Of a DNA stretch of 21,409 nucleotides, positions 1-8,000 are shown piece by piece (the stretch's first letter is position 1; every line of letters starts with the position of its first letter). The notes under the pieces were generated by a model, which saw nothing but the letters and a program-made list of their open reading frames with translations, did not search any database and was not told where the DNA came from. Source of the stretch: a virus; IMG/VR virus record IMGVR_UViG_3300048003_000102, positions 1 to 21,409 of that record. One strand, written 5' to 3'. Made by a program: the position numbers and the translations under genes.

Positions 1-50
1 CTCAAGATCCACAGAATTTAACTACGTAACAAGCATACACACAGAGAGAG

Positions 51-80
51 AGCGCCAACCCTAAGGCGCTTTTTCTTTTA
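51..80 (+). terminator. Intrinsic terminator of an upstream unit
   Basis: A perfect 6-bp GC-rich stem, AGCGCC at 51-56 and GGCGCT at 65-70, closes an 8-base loop and is followed at once by a T-rich run (TTTTTCTTTT from 70). This is the classic form of a Rho-independent terminator for + strand transcription. The gene it serves lies left of the window; only up to about 50 bases of its 3' end could be present. No T-run lies on the other side, so it should not stop minus-strand transcription. Confidence 0.85.
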
Positions 81-231
81 TCTTTTTTAAGGTACGGGTA
101 TAGCAGTTTAAAGAAATAGTATGCGTTCTAGTTGGCGAGCGTGTAGGCAGGCAGTTACGCGCATATCGTGTACGATACGAGGCAGAACGTTACAAACAAC
201 CCTACGACTAACACAGATTGATATATATAAC

Positions 232-251
232 CCCCATACTTAAACCTGGGG
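232..251 (-). other. CCCCA/TGGGG hairpin, possible weak terminator
   Basis: CCCCA (232-236) can pair with TGGGG (247-251) around a 10-base loop. Read on the minus strand it lies about 50 bases downstream of the tRNA-like element and is followed by GTTATATATAT, a poor U-tract. It could stop or stabilise a minus-strand transcript, but a 5-bp stem with a large loop is weak evidence. Confidence 0.2.
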
Positions 252-298
252 CGTGCGGAAATATATATGAATACGTCAATGTTTATGTGGTAATTTGT

Positions 299-375
299 GG
301 AGGTGGTAGGAGTTGCACCTACGTTAAGTTAGTAGCTTTGGAACAAACGATCTATCTTATTTCTAGAACACCCCC
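299..375 (-). ncRNA. Atypical tRNA-like cloverleaf
   Basis: Reading the minus strand from 375 to 299 gives a 77-nt RNA in which all four tRNA stems form in order. Acceptor: 7 bp (369-375 with 299-305, one G-U). D-arm: 4 bp, UCUA/UAGA (364-367 with 351-354), 9-nt loop. Anticodon-type arm: 5 positions (344-348 with 328-332, one U-U mismatch) with an enlarged 11-nt loop, 9 if one more pair forms. Variable region: 5 nt. T-arm: perfect 5 bp GUAGG/CCUAC with 7-nt loop UGCAACU. Three features are abnormal: the D-loop lacks GG, the T-arm carries GUGC instead of GUUC, and the anticodon loop is too large. The loop contains U-UCC-A, which would read as a glycine anticodon. CCA is not encoded. It may be a decayed tRNA, a non-translating tRNA mimic, or chance. 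A TATACT element sits exactly 7 nt ahead of its first base. Confidence 0.4.
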
Positions 376-382
376 AGTAGAC

Positions 383-388
383 AGTATA
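383..388 (-). promoter_or_regulatory. -10 element for the tRNA-like RNA
   Basis: On the minus strand TATACT (388 down to 383) matches the -10 consensus in 5 of 6 positions and lies 7 bases before G375, the first base of the predicted acceptor stem, so a transcript would start at the mature 5' end or one base away. No good -35 box is seen at the usual distance. The surrounding AGTATACT (383-390) is a perfect 8-base palindrome, so the same site could also serve the + strand. Confidence 0.35.
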
Positions 389-410
389 CTATATGTTGGT
401 GTACTATATG
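384..410. repeat. Near-identical 12-base direct repeat
   Basis: GTATACTATATG at 384-395 recurs as GTGTACTATATG at 399-410 with one mismatch, at a 15-base period, followed by a related GTATATAA at 413-420. These AT-rich units overlap the candidate -10 region of the tRNA-like RNA and could be operator half-sites or overlapping promoters. The similarity is seen directly; the function is inferred. Confidence 0.4.
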
Positions 411-676
411 TAGTATATAACAACTTATTACTGTGTAGCAGTAAAGTTTGTTATATTGGCTCGGGCAGTCGTTGTAGGTGTAGCTAACCCTGTGTCACTC
501 CCAACCCAACGCAGTTTATTAAGTCTAGTAACGATATGTAGTGTGTTTCTCTCTCTGTAATAAATAATATGTGAGGAATGTGGCTCAACCCACGACTGGT
601 GCGGTCCTGCTAGCCCAACACTTTAAAACATGATCTTTATCTTACGGTACTTGTAAAGGCAGGAATACCATAATGT

Positions 677-706
677 TTGTTCCGATTAGTATATCTATGC
701 TACACT
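677..706 (+). promoter_or_regulatory. Candidate late promoter before terminase
   Basis: TTGTTC (677-682; 4 of 6 to the -35 consensus) and an extended -10, TGC followed by TACACT (701-706; 4 of 6), are separated by 18 bases. A start around 712-714 would leave only about 7 untranslated bases before the terminase ATG at 720. It is the only promoter-like pair close to the first gene of the structural operon. Confidence 0.4.
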
Positions 707-719
707 ATACCATAGCAGT

Positions 720-2636
720 ATGTCAAGTAAACAAAAAAACACCATTTGCACAGCTTCAGATTGTGTAGTCCCATTACCAGAAGGTCGTCAGAAGTACTGT
801 AGTGATACTTGTGCCAATAGAACAAAGAAAAGGGCATATAGGGCTAAGAAAAGTGCAAGTGACATGCAGGTCATCAAAGAAGTAAACCCCAATGTACAGA
901 AACGTAGAGGGGATTATTACGCTATTATGAAACAGAAAAATTTTTTTCACGACATATTGAGTGGTGCTAAGACTAAAAAAGAGGTTGCAGATATACTAAG
1001 CTGTTCAGCGGCTAGTGTCTCTAGGGCTATGGCAGCATTTCTAGAGGATACTGCTAAGAAGGCAGAACACGAGAAGCGAGAGCAAGCGGTTGTGGGGGAA
1101 ATTCAAGAGGCGGACGTAGACGACTTTGTACGCTTTAGAGATGAGTATTTCTTAACAGAACAGAATAAAAATTATGAGACACCAGACTTTCAAAAAAGGT
1201 GGATAAGTGCTATCTTAGATAGTATACAACACGGTAAACGGTTGATGATATTGTCGCCACCTAGACATGGGAAGACAGATCTGTTAACACACTTTTGTGT
1301 CTACATGATTGCTAAAAATCCCAACATACGTATCATGTGGTGCGGTGGTAACGAGGATATTGCAAAGAATAGTGTTGGTGCAGTATTAGACCATTTGGAG
1401 AACAATGAAGGACTTATCCAGGATTACGGAGATTGGGACGGATTTAGACCTGCTAATAGAAGCGGAAAAAGTTGGTCGTCCAGTCAATTTACTGTTGCAA
1501 CTAGAACAGTCTCTGGTATTAAGTCGCCAACTCTTGTCGCAATTGGAAAGGGAGGTAAAATCCTTTCCCGAGACGCAGACCTTATTATTGCAGACGACAT
1601 CGAGGATCATGGAAGTACTGTGCAACCAAGTGCTAGAGAAAACACCAGGAACTGGTGGACAACAACATTACAGTCACGTAAAGAGGAACACACAGGCATG
1701 GTTGTCATCGGATCAAGACAACACCCAGACGATCTTTACCATCATCTCTTAGAGAACCAAGCATGGGAAAGCATTGTAGACCGTGCGCATGATTTAGAAA
1801 TACCACTAGAGGACGAAACCCTAGACCATACACCACACATGTTATGGGCAGAAAAACGTACACATAAGTGGTTAATAGAACAGTTAGCGTCAGCAGAGAC
1901 AACAGGTGGTAGAAATATATTTGAAATGGTCTATCTTAATAAAGCTATACCTGACGGCATGAGTTTATTTACCGCAGAGAGTGTAGACGCGTGTTTAGAT
2001 ACATCTAGAAAACTAGGAGATATACCTCCGCATACTGCATTGATTGCAGGGTTAGATCCTGCAAGTACGGGGTATCAAGCAGCGGTGCTTTGGGCGTATA
2101 ATGCAAAAACGCAACAAGTATGGCTAGTTGATGTCAAGAATGACCAAGGTGGTGGTATACAAAAAGCACATAACTTAATGAAAGAATGGTATGAGAAATA
2201 CTGGTTAAGTCATTGGGTAATAGAGGAGAATGGTTTTCAACGTGCTATTGGACAAGACAGAGAGATTAGAAACTGGGCAGCAGCACATGGTGTACGACTA
2301 GAAGGACATCAGACATATAAAAATAAATGGGATCCGACCTTTGGTGTAACCAGTATGGTTGGTATGTATGAACAACAGAAGATGAACTTACCGTGGGCAG
2401 ACGCACAAACAAAACGTAAAGTAAACATTCTTAGACAACAGTTACTCTACTTTTCACAAGCAGGTGCCTCTAACTCACGTAATGTAAAAACTAAAACTGA
2501 CTTAGTTATGGCAAGTTGGTTTCCAATGAAACGTATACGCACAAACGTAAAAATCATGTTATCAGAAGTGCAGAGTGACTATACTCCATCTTATAGCTAT
2601 TACAAGCAAAGCGAACACAATGAGGTTTTTTGGTAA
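720..2636 (+). CDS. Terminase large subunit with N-terminal Zn-finger/HTH extension
   Basis: DNA-packaging motor of 638 aa. ATPase: Walker A SPPRHGKT (179-186) and Walker B LIIADD (288-293). RNase H-type nuclease: candidate metal ligands D446 (in AGLDPAST), E502/E503 (VIEENG) and D594 (KTDLVMAS). The N-terminus is unusual: C10, C15, C27 and C31 form a zinc-finger pattern followed by a basic stretch (KKRAYRAKK), then a helix-turn-helix-like segment at about 80-108 (TKKEVADILSCSAASVSRAM), then a charged linker before the ATPase. Those parts resemble DNA-binding modules and may do the job of a small terminase subunit, which is not found in the window. ATG at 720 is the first possible start after an in-frame TAG at 687 and has no Shine-Dalgarno sequence; the candidate promoter lies just upstream, so the mRNA may be nearly leaderless. 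The stop codon abuts the portal ATG. Confidence 0.93.
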   Translation: MSSKQKNTICTASDCVVPLPEGRQKYCSDTCANRTKKRAYRAKKSASDMQVIKEVNPNVQKRRGDYYAIMKQKNFFHDILSGAKTKKEVADILSCSAASVSRAMAAFLEDTAKKAEHEKREQAVVGEIQEADVDDFVRFRDEYFLTEQNKNYETPDFQKRWISAILDSIQHGKRLMILSPPRHGKTDLLTHFCVYMIAKNPNIRIMWCGGNEDIAKNSVGAVLDHLENNEGLIQDYGDWDGFRPANRSGKSWSSSQFTVATRTVSGIKSPTLVAIGKGGKILSRDADLIIADDIEDHGSTVQPSARENTRNWWTTTLQSRKEEHTGMVVIGSRQHPDDLYHHLLENQAWESIVDRAHDLEIPLEDETLDHTPHMLWAEKRTHKWLIEQLASAETTGGRNIFEMVYLNKAIPDGMSLFTAESVDACLDTSRKLGDIPPHTALIAGLDPASTGYQAAVLWAYNAKTQQVWLVDVKNDQGGGIQKAHNLMKEWYEKYWLSHWVIEENGFQRAIGQDREIRNWAAAHGVRLEGHQTYKNKWDPTFGVTSMVGMYEQQKMNLPWADAQTKRKVNILRQQLLYFSQAGASNSRNVKTKTDLVMASWFPMKRIRTNVKIMLSEVQSDYTPSYSYYKQSEHNEVFW

Positions 2637-4379
2637 ATGTTAACACCTGACGAACTACTTATTAAAACGGACGACTTAAAAGGTATGCACGAGCATAGTG
2701 GACACTATGAGTATCGTGATAGAGTGCGTTCTATAATGAATGGCGGTAGCAATGGTATCGCAGCATTACTAGGTAATGACGCTAAAAACTACGACACAGA
2801 CTTACCAATCCCTAACCTTATCAATTCAGGTTTAGAACATCTTGCACAGAAACTAGGGCGTATGCCTGACATTAAAGTTGACCAGTATGCAGATAGTGAA
2901 CGAGCAAAAGGCAAAGCAGAAAAATTAGAACGTATTGTTTCTAGCTTAGACGGAAACTCTAAGATGGATATGCAAATGCCACAAGCTGCACGTTGGCTAC
3001 CTGGTTATGGTTTTTGTGTATGGATAATAAGACAGAAGATGTCGCCAGACGGTATCATGTATCCTCATGCAGAACTTAGAGATCCTTATGATTGTTACCC
3101 AGGATATTATGGTCCAGACCAAGATCCTAAAGAGCTAGCACTTATACGACTTGTACCTACTGCAGTTATTAAACAGATGTATCCACAAGCACAAGTGATG
3201 GTTGATGAGAGTAGTCAGTTCCCATCAGGTTACAGTAAGTTTAAATACCATGACGGTTTCCAGAGAAGTTGGGATAACCAACTAGCTGACGGTGTTGAAT
3301 TAGTAGAGTACTATAACGAAGAAGGTACTTACGTATTCTTACCAGATACAAAACAGATTTTAGATTACACTCCTAACCCACTTAAATCAGGTCCAAGGTT
3401 TGTTATCTCTAAGAGATTTAGCTTTGATAGATTAACTGGTCAGTATGACCACGTACTAGGTTTGATGGCAGCAATGGCAAAGATTAACGTCTTATCTATT
3501 ATTGCTATGGAAGATAGTGTATTCACAGAAACCAATATTATTGGAGAACTAGAAAGCGGTAACTATAAGCGTGGTAGATTATCAGTCAACTACCTAAGCC
3601 CAGGTTCACAAGTTTCTAAACCACCTAATAATATTCCGTATCAGTTGTTTACACAGATTGACAGGATAGAGAGACAACTTCGTGTTGGTTCTAGCTATCC
3701 AGTAAGCGATGACGCTATATCCCCTAACTCGTTTGTAACAGGTAGAGGGTTGCAAGAACTATTATCGTCCGTTGATCTAAACGTCAAGGAATATCAGTTA
3801 TCACTAAAAACAGCAATGGAAGAACTAGATTATAAACGTTTAGAAATGGACGAGGCGCTTAACGGTCAAACTAAAAAACCTATGGCAGGTTACTTAAAAG
3901 GTACAGCTTATGCTGAACAATACACACCTGCAGCAGATATTAAAGGTATGTACAAGACAAGACGTATCTATGGTGTCATGGCAGGTTTTGATGAACCTAC
4001 TAAAATTGTTTCTGGACTTCAGTTACTACAAGCAGGTATCATAGATAAAGAAACCTTACAAGAAAACATGGACGGTTTAGATAACGTTCAGAAGATTAAT
4101 GATAGAATACTAAAAGACGAAGCTGAACGTACATTGTTTGAGACATTAAAAATACAAGCTAGTCAGGGAGATGAGAAAGCAACTATGGCATTGGTACAGA
4201 TTTATAAAAATCCAAATAGTATGCAATCAATCTTAGATAAATTTTATACCGCAGAGGATCCAGAGATACCAGAACCAGAAGCAGCATTGTTAGGTCAGGA
4301 TCTAGGGGGTGGAGAACTAGCAGTACCACAAGGACCTGCACCAGACATTAGATCATTATTACTAGGAGGTGGACAATAA
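2637..4379 (+). CDS. Portal protein
   Basis: A 580-aa protein directly after terminase, the usual portal position. It would form the dodecameric ring at the packaging vertex through which DNA enters and leaves and to which the tail attaches. Sequence features typical of phage portals: an early NGGSNGIAALLG segment followed by DLPIPNLINSGLEHLAQKLG (about 55-75), an aromatic/Pro-rich clip or wing region (HAELRDPYDCYPGYYGPD), and a long helical C-terminal half (SVDLNVKEYQLSLKTAMEELDYKRLEMDEAL). The acidic/Pro tail ends PDIRSLLLGGGQ. It starts one base after the terminase stop, in the same frame, so its translation is probably coupled; GAGG at 2622-2625 is only a weak ribosome binding site. Its stop shares a base with the next ATG (ATAATG), and an AGGAGG for that gene lies inside its 3' end. 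Confidence 0.9.
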   Translation: MLTPDELLIKTDDLKGMHEHSGHYEYRDRVRSIMNGGSNGIAALLGNDAKNYDTDLPIPNLINSGLEHLAQKLGRMPDIKVDQYADSERAKGKAEKLERIVSSLDGNSKMDMQMPQAARWLPGYGFCVWIIRQKMSPDGIMYPHAELRDPYDCYPGYYGPDQDPKELALIRLVPTAVIKQMYPQAQVMVDESSQFPSGYSKFKYHDGFQRSWDNQLADGVELVEYYNEEGTYVFLPDTKQILDYTPNPLKSGPRFVISKRFSFDRLTGQYDHVLGLMAAMAKINVLSIIAMEDSVFTETNIIGELESGNYKRGRLSVNYLSPGSQVSKPPNNIPYQLFTQIDRIERQLRVGSSYPVSDDAISPNSFVTGRGLQELLSSVDLNVKEYQLSLKTAMEELDYKRLEMDEALNGQTKKPMAGYLKGTAYAEQYTPAADIKGMYKTRRIYGVMAGFDEPTKIVSGLQLLQAGIIDKETLQENMDGLDNVQKINDRILKDEAERTLFETLKIQASQGDEKATMALVQIYKNPNSMQSILDKFYTAEDPEIPEPEAALLGQDLGGGELAVPQGPAPDIRSLLLGGGQ

Positions 4380-4621
4380 TGCCTGAACCAAAAGATAATA
4401 CAAACATGCAGTTTGCAGATATTTGCGAGACATCATTATTTGATATTTGGCAAAGAACTACAGAATACTTAGACGACTATGATACTTTTTTAAAAGATAA
4501 CGATGAACAAGAGACACAGTTATCTGCTTTCCCACAAGGCATGGTCGTGCAATACATACCTAACGGTATAATTATTATGTTTGGACCACAAGAAAACTTA
4601 GGAGAAGAATATGGCTATTGA
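4379..4621 (+). CDS. Small acidic hypothetical protein after portal
   Basis: Encodes 80 aa, not assigned to a family. It is acidic (many D/E, e.g. YLDDYDTFLKDNDEQE) with a C-terminal beta-like hydrophobic stretch (MVVQYIPNGIIIMFGP), no signal peptide and no membrane span. It has the best ribosome binding site in the region, AGGAGG at 4364-4369, 9 bases before the ATG. It overlaps the portal by one base and the next gene by 11 bases, so it is part of the packaging/head operon. It may be a head-assembly accessory protein, but only its position suggests that. Confidence 0.75.
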   Translation: MPEPKDNTNMQFADICETSLFDIWQRTTEYLDDYDTFLKDNDEQETQLSAFPQGMVVQYIPNGIIIMFGPQENLGEEYGY

Positions 4622-5093
4622 TAGTAGTAGGCAAAATGGAAGACGTGGTGGCGTTAAAAAACCTGCTGCAGTAAGTGGTCCTGGTAAATTATCTAGAAGA
4701 ACTGATAGCGTTGCACCTACTATTGATGAAGTACGTGCTATGGTAACTGAAAGTGCAGGAGAAGAAAAAGCACTTGTAAACCAAGTTAGAGAAGGCAACA
4801 TAAATGCAACAGAAGAAGAAACAGTTGTACCTGCAGGACAAGGACAAATAGTTTCAGAAGAACCTGGAGTTATAACACCTTTACCTGGTGGGGTTGGAGA
4901 AATATTTGGACAAGGAGATGGTACTCCTATTAACACATTTTCTACTATGCAACAAAAAGAAAGTACCTTGCTAGAACCAGATGACCTAATGTTAATTAGA
5001 GCAATGGTAGGTATAAATCCTACACCAGAACTTATAAATTTATTACAAACAGCAGAACAAAAGATAAATAGAACACCAACACAACTAGGTTAA
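4611..5093 (+). CDS. Small basic-to-acidic head-region protein, hypothetical
   Basis: Encodes 160 aa. The N-terminus is basic and Gly-rich (RRGGVKKPAA, then PGKLSRRTD), the middle is acidic and low in complexity (EEETVVPAGQ), and the C-terminus is helical (DDLMLIRAMVGINPTPEL and LLQTAEQKIN). From memory, small proteins beginning with a similar SRQNGRRGG...SRRTD pattern sit between portal and a large structural protein in many actinobacteriophages; their function is unknown to me. AGGAG at 4600-4604 lies 6 bases before the ATG, inside the upstream gene, which it overlaps by 11 bases. A virion or assembly role is likely from context only. Confidence 0.75.
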   Translation: MAIDSSRQNGRRGGVKKPAAVSGPGKLSRRTDSVAPTIDEVRAMVTESAGEEKALVNQVREGNINATEEETVVPAGQGQIVSEEPGVITPLPGGVGEIFGQGDGTPINTFSTMQQKESTLLEPDDLMLIRAMVGINPTPELINLLQTAEQKINRTPTQLG

Positions 5094-5096
5094 TTT

Positions 5097-8000
5097 ATGG
5101 GTGTATTTCATAATGACAACCCTAAAACTGAACAAGACTTGTACAAAGAATTACAGGGTAGAAAAACACAATGGAACAGAGCTAAAGCTAGCGTAACTAG
5201 AGAAGACGCAGTAAGAGCTTCTACTATTGCACAGTTATATCCTAACTTTTCTCCTGATGTAATTACTTCATTGACTATGTTACAAGTAAAACCAGAAGCA
5301 GAAGTATTACGTACGTTATCAGAACGTGTTTTAGAAAACAATAAGAAATCTTTAGTCGATAAAGTATTCGATCCACTTAAAGGTGCCGTGCGTTTTGGTT
5401 TACTAGGATTAGAAGACTTATACAGAACAGCAGTAGATAGACCTATTAACTCTATGATTGCTGCAACTATTGGAGACAATGCAGAAGACTTAACCTTTAG
5501 GGACGCTTATGCACAATCAGGTAAATCAACAGTTAAACAAGTATTTAGTAACTTAGCACAAGGTAAAGAAATAAATTTAGGAGAAGGGTTACTACCTAAT
5601 TCAGAAGTATTCGATCCAGAAAATCCTAATAGTAAATATTACGATGAATATAAATATTTAGTACAGTCTGGGTTTGACAATACACGTGCGCAAAACATTA
5701 TACAAAATCAACTAGGTTCAGCTATTACAGATATAGATAGTCGTATGCAAGAGGAGAGCGGACAGTTTAATATATCCACACAACTAGGTACTGGAGAAAC
5801 TGTTAAAACACCTATCTCATTAGGAAGAACTGTAGCGTTAGGTGTTACAGAACCAGGTACTAAAGGGTTTAATGTTGTATCTGGAATACTAGACGCAGGC
5901 AAGGCATTGTTTCTTGATCCATCTAACTACTTAACTTTAGGTGTAGGTGCAGCAAGAAAAAGTGCTAAAACGTTAAGAGCAAGTGATCAAACAATATCAA
6001 TGCTTAAAAAAGTAGATACAAAGTTTACACCTGCAGAACTAAAACAATTAGGTATTGTAGAACGAGGTTTTGGACTACCGTTTATATCATCTAAGTCAGT
6101 TACTGATTATTTACAAAAAGATCCAGGTGGCATGAAACTTGTTAAGTACATGTCAAACATTACATCAGATAGTAAGTTTATGGACATTACAGGTATTGAA
6201 GATCCAGAGATTGTCAGTAGATTTATGAAGATTACACAAGACTTTACTAAATCATCAGCTGATAAACAAATAGAGATGGCACAACTTATAGATCAATCTA
6301 TTGGTTTTAAAGATTTACCATTTGGTACAACTAAACCTACAGTAGGTGCAGTTGGTAGATTTTTAGGTGGTGCAGCAGAAAGTATTAGCAAGACTGTACC
6401 AGAAGGTACAGGTCAATTGTTTGGTGCTAAGAAAGTAGCAAAACTTGCTTTAATGGATAGTAATAGTAGAGCAGCACGTATATTTTCTACTTACACAAAA
6501 GACTTACCACTTAGATATTTAGATAGCGAGAACATAGAAAAAAGCTATGGAGAAGTAAAAAGATGGTTAGATCAAACAGACTTAAATAGAAATAGTAAAG
6601 ATAAGATATTAAGACAAGCTGCAGTACTACGTCCAGGAGACCAAGCAGGATTGTTTCAAGTTGCTACTTCAATGCTTAAAGAAGTTGGAGATGACTTAGT
6701 AGATAACTTTCAAGTAAGCAAACAGGACGCTGACAACTTTACACGTATATTTGCAGAGACACAAGATGACATGCGTAAGTATTTTATAGACGCTTACACA
6801 GGTAAGAACGTAAACCAACCAGGTATGAAGATGTCTCCAATAACTATTAGCGGTAAAATGAGACCAGTACCTGACGCACATTTAACTACAGAGTTTATTA
6901 ATAGAACTATACCTATGCCAGACGCAGGACAATTAGCTAAAGCTATGAACTCTATGTCTATATTAAGAAGCAAGATGGGTGGTACTAAAGGTATGGACGA
7001 CTTCCTTAAAAAATATCCTAAAGCAATGCAAAAAGGAATTATGGGTAAAAGTACTGATTGGTACTACACAGAGTTCTGGAAACCATTAGTACTTCTACGA
7101 GGTGCATGGTTACTACGTGTTGTAGGAGAAGAACAATTACGTATGTTTACTAAAGGATATGACACAATCTTTTCGCGACCTGCAAGTATCTTATCTTTAT
7201 CATTGCTTAAAAAAGCAGACGCTAAACAAGCAAAGAAATGGACACAAAAAGATGTAGAGTTCAAAGATCTATTTGGAGATCCTCTTGCAGAAAGTTTGGA
7301 ATGGAAACAAGGATCATCACGTATGCGTGGTGCTAACAATAATGACGAAGCATTCGGTGGTGCAGAAAGATTTAAAAAACAAAAAAAGAAGTTTCGTAAA
7401 AAGATGGGACCACATGACTATGACATCTTAGATAAACGTGAAGCATTTGCAGGAGATAAAGCAGGTGCTAATAAATTTGTTAGAGCATGGACTAATGAAG
7501 TCTCTAAGATATACCAAGATGATTTGTTTACGTTATTGTTTAGAGGTAAGAATAATCCTGTAGCGAGAGAAAAAGTTTTAAAAGAATGGGTAGAAGGTAA
7601 AACACCTAGAGCCAAAGCTGTTATAGAGGAGTATGCAAAAGGTGGTCAAAGATACGAAGACATTATGACTACAGCAGGTGGTCGATATGTTTATGCTAAA
7701 TCCTTAGAAGCTAGGTTACAACAGGTTGCAGGTGGTGCATTTGATGAAGATGTTGACTTATTAAATGACCTTATAAACAGATTAGAGTTTGATGAAATAG
7801 ATTTTTCTAAGAACCCTTTTCCATTAAGACTAGATAGAACACGTAACGAAGACTTGTTTGACATGATGTTAAGTGGTAAATTAAATAAAATACAAAAACG
7901 ATCTGATGGTGTTTGGATAAACAATCCAACAGAAGAACAATTAAAGTTTGTTAAAGAGACAGTAGAAGTTGGCGGGGAAACTAAATATCTTATAGAGGAC

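Follow-up and report, generated by a model that had tools for sequence, protein, structure and literature searches.

The locus and its minus-strand element

The window (the whole stretch of 21,409 nucleotides analysed) is a fragment of an uncultured marine phage. Its genes include a terminase (720-2636), a portal, an endolysin domain and a major head protein. No nucleotide relatives were found when positions 1-8000 were compared by blastn with cultured phages, and the terminase is at most about 27% identical to cultured-phage terminases. In the loci of this family, an RNA element lies some 345 nt upstream of the terminase gene and antisense to it. In the window it occupies positions 298-375 of the minus strand (78 nt), with base 1 at 375 and the discriminator A73 at 298. 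An initial annotation had placed a 77-nt element at 299-375; the location was right, while the length has to be extended to include A73.

From 5′ to 3′ on the minus strand, the element consists of the first strand of a 7-bp acceptor stem (GGGGGUG, 369-375, G3 at 373), a stemless D-region (UUCUAGAAA, 360-368), the P2 helix (UAAGAUAG, 352-359, with CUAACUUA, 325-332) closed by a loop with a conserved U-UCC motif (333-351), a 5-bp T-arm (GUAGG, loop UGCAACU, CCUAC, 306-322), the second acceptor strand (CACCUCC, 299-305, U70 at 301) and A73. In RNA numbering, the P2-like helix joins positions 17-24 with 44-51 (UAAGaUAG/CUAaCUUA), with one A-A mismatch in the window copy. A73 is followed by CAA; CCA is not encoded in the window copy, and is encoded after A73 in one relative (L019). 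The 7-nt T-loop carries U54, C56 and A58, and the T-arm is as expected of a tmRNA of which only the tRNA-like domain is left (TLD-only tmRNA). The P2 loop, 19 nt long, is too short for a tag reading frame, and both this frame and the pseudoknots are absent from the RNA, as judged from the sequence and the Rfam alignments of relatives. A −10-like box, TATACT (383-388, minus strand), ends 7 nt upstream of base 1, as had been reported; a scan for a sigma-70 −35 box before it found none.

Folding of the minus strand returned the acceptor and T-arm helices exactly, in agreement with the initial annotation, plus a long central helix. The folding energy of the element (z = −1.5) is no proof on its own. 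The window was also searched for a fully paired acceptor, with no more than one G-U allowed, together with a T-arm having a T-loop-like loop; this combination occurs once, against 0.007 times per dinucleotide-shuffled window. ARAGORN, one of the programs recommended for checking the element, called no tRNA there, nor at the element in relatives, and Rfam at gathering score gave no match in the window.

Downstream of the RNA, at 229-290 on the minus strand, the non-coding region before the terminase contains two sequences conserved throughout the family, ATTGACGTATTCATATATATTT and GTATGGGGGTT. They are possibly a packaging or replication signal.

Conservation and compensatory changes in the phage family

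Terminase homologues were gathered from IMG/VR blind to the RNA, which yielded 73 loci, 57 of them with enough upstream sequence. The element was intact in 56 of these 57. In the last one (L067, 3300-4130), it is truncated inside the T-arm, the 3′ acceptor strand and the following bases being gone; this is either a deletion or a misassembly, and if it is a deletion, the element is not always kept.

The family comparison comprised 18 distinct sequences. The T-stem is paired in 100% of them, with changes on both sides in 3 of its 5 pairs: the three outer pairs vary as GC/CG/UA, UA/CG and GC/AU. P2 also covaries in the relatives through compensatory changes, and the acceptor, G3-U70 included, is invariant. 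In the family members inspected, a TATACT, TATAAT or TACAAT box precedes base 1 by 6-8 nt. The claim of a genuine minus-strand tRNA-like RNA is borne out by this recurrence with a −10 box and by the compensatory changes, which indicate that the element is under purifying compensatory evolution.

The two other stems of the cloverleaf first drawn did not withstand the alignment of related contigs. No compensatory change was found in the 4-bp D-stem, where single pairs fail in 11 of the 18 sequences, nor in the anticodon-type stem, where they fail in 15 and where no 7-nt loop is conserved; P2 covaries in their stead. The element had been read as a glycyl-tRNA for cell-wall synthesis, given the UCC in the loop and the GUGC in the T-arm. 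This reading can practically be dismissed: neither a D-stem nor an anticodon stem is conserved, the invariant G3-U70 and A73 form the alanine set instead, and GUGC is common to full-length phage tmRNAs.

The GUGC and the missing GG of the D-loop had further been taken as marks of escape from EF-Tu. Three observations speak against this: the T-loop in question recurs in full-length phage tmRNAs, that of sister phages is the ordinary UUCGA, and a change at one site is accompanied by a change at the other. Every family sequence combines either T-loop UGC and D-loop UAG (9 sequences) or UUC and UGG (9 sequences), without exception (18/18); in the window, the UAG provides A18 and G19, covarying with T-loop base 55. 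All full-length permuted phage tmRNAs with UGC have A-G in the D-loop (34 in a fixed register; 13 read A-G-G with one extra base, and for D-loops with AGG the register of the base 18/base 55 table is ambiguous). Of 41 TLD-only RNAs with UUC, 36 have G-G; in the others the register is unclear or GG is missing. The two oddities of the initial annotation are thus one coupled tertiary change by which the elbow contact is kept. Covariation of bases 18 and 55 with a preserved contact favours a folded tRNA-like RNA, and disfavours the EF-Tu-escape reading. The same covariation (G/U with A/G) is seen in the phage tmRNAs L075-L104 and L420-L494, and some phage tRNA-Ala (L419, L218) seem to follow the rule.

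A decayed tRNA or a coincidence, both raised at the outset, are excluded by the compensatory changes together with the Rfam tmRNA homology of sister copies (see below). The element might otherwise be a remnant, either of a decayed tmRNA gene or of an attachment site copied from the host ssrA. The 3′ ends of tmRNAs are common att sites, such a fragment in Mycobacterium phage Milly adjoins an integrase, and L067 carries a truncated copy. However, the whole domain, 5′ half included, is conserved with compensatory changes, and neither an integrase nor SmpB was found among the 45 Pfam-scanned proteins of a complete-looking 44-kb relative (G005), in which no other tRNA-like gene was found. A remnant is therefore very improbable and largely refuted, and its attP version is rejected for want of an integrase among the scanned proteins of that relative.

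Relation to tmRNA and occurrence in other genomes

Three sister copies matched the tmRNA model RF00023: L025 with 52.6 bits (gathering score 47), L012 with E = 6e-12 and L042 with E = 3e-8. All three matches run end to end and skip the middle of the model (about 300 nt), and the D-loop of L025, UGGUUUCG, is that of tmRNA. Because sister copies match RF00023 minus its middle, the RNA is almost certainly the tRNA-like domain (TLD) of tmRNA in normal order, devoid of the mRNA-like domain; its P2 ends in a short loop and does not run on into a tag region. The Infernal/Rfam check that had been proposed thus gave a divided answer, as the window copy itself matches RF00023 below threshold and its sister L025 above.

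With standard tmRNA (RF00023), the window RNA has in common the acceptor with G3-U70, the stemless D-region, P2 and the T-arm, but it has neither mRNA-like domain nor pseudoknots. With the permuted two-piece phage tmRNAs (RF04321/RF01849; L075, L076; Melnitz, PMC9004378) it shares the T-loop UGCAACU, the D-loop UAG and the acceptor strand CACCUCC; these begin with the T-arm half and have a complete tag region behind it, whereas the window RNA has the normal order and no tag. A permuted tmRNA using a downstream GGGGGUU was considered and rejected: the sequence past this motif is not conserved and offers no covarying P2 partner. The conserved GUAUGGGGGUU downstream is followed by nothing that resembles tmRNA, and RF04321 matches near the element are weak.

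According to the passages on phage DS6A in PMC4131195 and PMC11915505, both citing Mao et al. 2009, this phage has a 'TLD only' tmRNA. Compared by description, not by sequence, the features of this type are present in the window RNA: a tmRNA-type 7-bp acceptor, G3-U70, A73, a stemless D-region, a long P2 and a T-arm, without mRNA-like domain. The window RNA differs in belonging to an unrelated marine phage family, and in standing alone as a gene, behind a −10 box of its own and antisense to the terminase side, with T-loop UGCAA. The CDS-less tmRNAs of organelles (jakobid and oomycete mitochondria, Mallomonadaceae plastids; PMC11915505) are likewise TLDs without tag region; unlike the window RNA, they are organelle genes, mostly permuted in mitochondria, and the role proposed for them is rescue, not interference (PMC11915505).

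A degenerate acceptor and T-arm pattern run over IMG/VR matched at least 120 contigs. Among the matches listed, 76 new loci gave 46 distinct sequences kept as not tRNA-like, nearly all of them TLD-only RNAs (L160 and the pair L130/L154 are uncertain, and L133 was kept despite a tRNA-Pro call by ARAGORN); in these 46, the pattern put no constraint on the outer T-stem pairs, yet these were complementary in 138 cases out of 138. With a covariance model (R1) built from six unrelated phage TLD-only RNAs, exactly 298-375 was recovered, at 30.9 bits; judged by R1 alone, the window copy does not outscore the best tRNA-Ala. Of all members of the set it is the weakest, by its A-A mismatch in P2, its sub-threshold Rfam match and its R1 score. 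In an alignment of 58 sequences, 96.9% of the cells were paired (46-56% for slid control structures), a comparison biased in favour of the structure, since the alignment was fitted to it; 297 cells were changed on both sides, against a shuffled mean of 86. Sequence searches show RNAs of this kind in dozens of phage contigs unrelated to the family.

Many of the RNAs from unrelated phages (L105, L109, L124, L127, L167, L174, L236, L352 and others) have an inner P2 motif AAAGCC-loop-GGA, which the window family lacks, the U-UCC loop standing in its place. One phage contig carries a second TLD-only RNA (L131, 3208-3288), with acceptor GGGUGUG/CACAUCC, where G3-U70 is kept and pair 4 is changed.

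TLD-only RNAs, not annotated as RNA, were also found in the cultured Streptomyces phages LuckySocke (L352, 787-864), Shaeky (L353, 775-853), Alone3 (L362, 401-477), pSt2308 (L363, 401-478), BRock (L364, 401-478), Yaboi (L366, 549-626) and GiJojo. Most of these copies are in or adjoining tRNA genes, and 4 of the 6 distinct ones passed the RF00023 threshold. Among GTDB genomes, such RNAs occur in Poribacteria, Actinomadura, Cellulomonas and others.

This phage RNA is of a known kind, barely documented before. In the tmRNA surveys of 2014 and 2025 (PMC4131195, PMC11915505), phage TLD-only tmRNA is represented by one phage, DS6A. Here an entire lineage of marine phages has it as a conserved gene, and it is found as well in dozens of unrelated contigs, in at least 7 cultured Streptomyces phages and in Poribacteria chromosomes. 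Such RNAs go undetected by the tRNA finder in common use.

Alanine identity and possible roles

G3-U70 together with A73 is the identity set recognized by alanyl-tRNA synthetase (AlaRS). In a scan with all acceptor bases left free, G3-U70 was present in 13 of 14 TLD-like RNAs and in none of the 72 tRNAs obtained by the same scan; in these TLD-like RNAs, pairs 5-7, and less often pair 4, vary with compensation. In the Streptomyces phages, G3-U70 is kept within the acceptors GGGUCUG, GGGGUAG, GGGGCUG and GGGUUUG, where other pairs have changed. By the AlaRS rule, the conserved G3-U70 points to charging with alanine. As titration of SmpB alone would not need an alanine identity, its conservation suggests entry into the ribosome rather than mere SmpB titration; the invariant determinant hints that charging matters, and with charging the entry into ribosomes.

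According to two reviews of the tmRNA database (PMC4131195; PMC11915505), tmRNA is strongly inhibited in E. coli by a TLD-only-like molecule, whether or not this can be charged, perhaps through titration of SmpB. Because of this precedent and that of DS6A, interference with host trans-translation is our best guess: taken as a whole, the best explanation, which we hold to be probable, is a phage-encoded tmRNA cut down to the TLD that acts as a decoy against host tmRNA. For the narrower proposition that inhibition is the main role of the RNA, the chances are about even. The RNA would be transcribed alone from base 1 at 375, receive CCA and then alanine from the host AlaRS, bind SmpB and EF-Tu, and compete with host tmRNA at stalled ribosomes. 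Since it has no resume codon, tagging and proteolysis would be blocked during infection.

Conservation of the alanine identity, which inhibition does not need, would also fit a rescue without tag, in which the alanylated TLD enters stalled ribosomes with SmpB, takes the nascent chain and helps to free the ribosome. Such a rescue was proposed for mitochondrial tmRNAs that lost their mRNA-like region, and CDS-less tmRNAs of organelles are retained along with SmpB (PMC11915505). But with neither resume nor stop codon, normal release is impossible, and the hosts are expected to carry a complete tmRNA, as several genomes bearing TLD-only RNAs do; we consider this alternative unlikely. More doubtful still is a tRNA mimic that acts as a decoy with AlaRS, EF-Tu, a defence nuclease that cuts tRNAs, or another host factor without connection to tmRNA as its target: an ArdA-like antirestriction gene near the element in G005 speaks for it, and the stemless D-region and P2, which are specific to tmRNA and not needed to mimic a tRNA, against it. 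The ArdA-like protein (PF07275; L360, 1084-1659) is encoded among the first genes on the element's far side in that relative.

Whether phages attack host ribosome rescue or make use of it becomes directly testable with cultured phages. We tentatively suggest, although the chances are somewhat below even, that TLD-only tmRNAs form a widespread and overlooked class of phage RNA, selected for alanine identity and entering stalled ribosomes rather than simply titrating SmpB, and that the Poribacteria version is a built-in regulator of full-length tmRNA. Chromosomal TLD-only genes were seen in at least 10 Poribacteria MAGs (L220-L223, L225, L227, L228, L230, L234, L235), and full-length tmRNA (175-189 bits) was also found in 6 of the 8 Poribacteria genomes searched. 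In 9 of 10 Poribacteria loci the neighbour is the same, a PLP-decarboxylase gene on the opposite strand, about 20 bp away or overlapping. Finally, there were two Pistol ribozyme matches: L226, 1621-1716, on a Prochlorococcus contig where a TLD-only tmRNA is also present, and L365, 685-743, in Microbacterium phage Camille.
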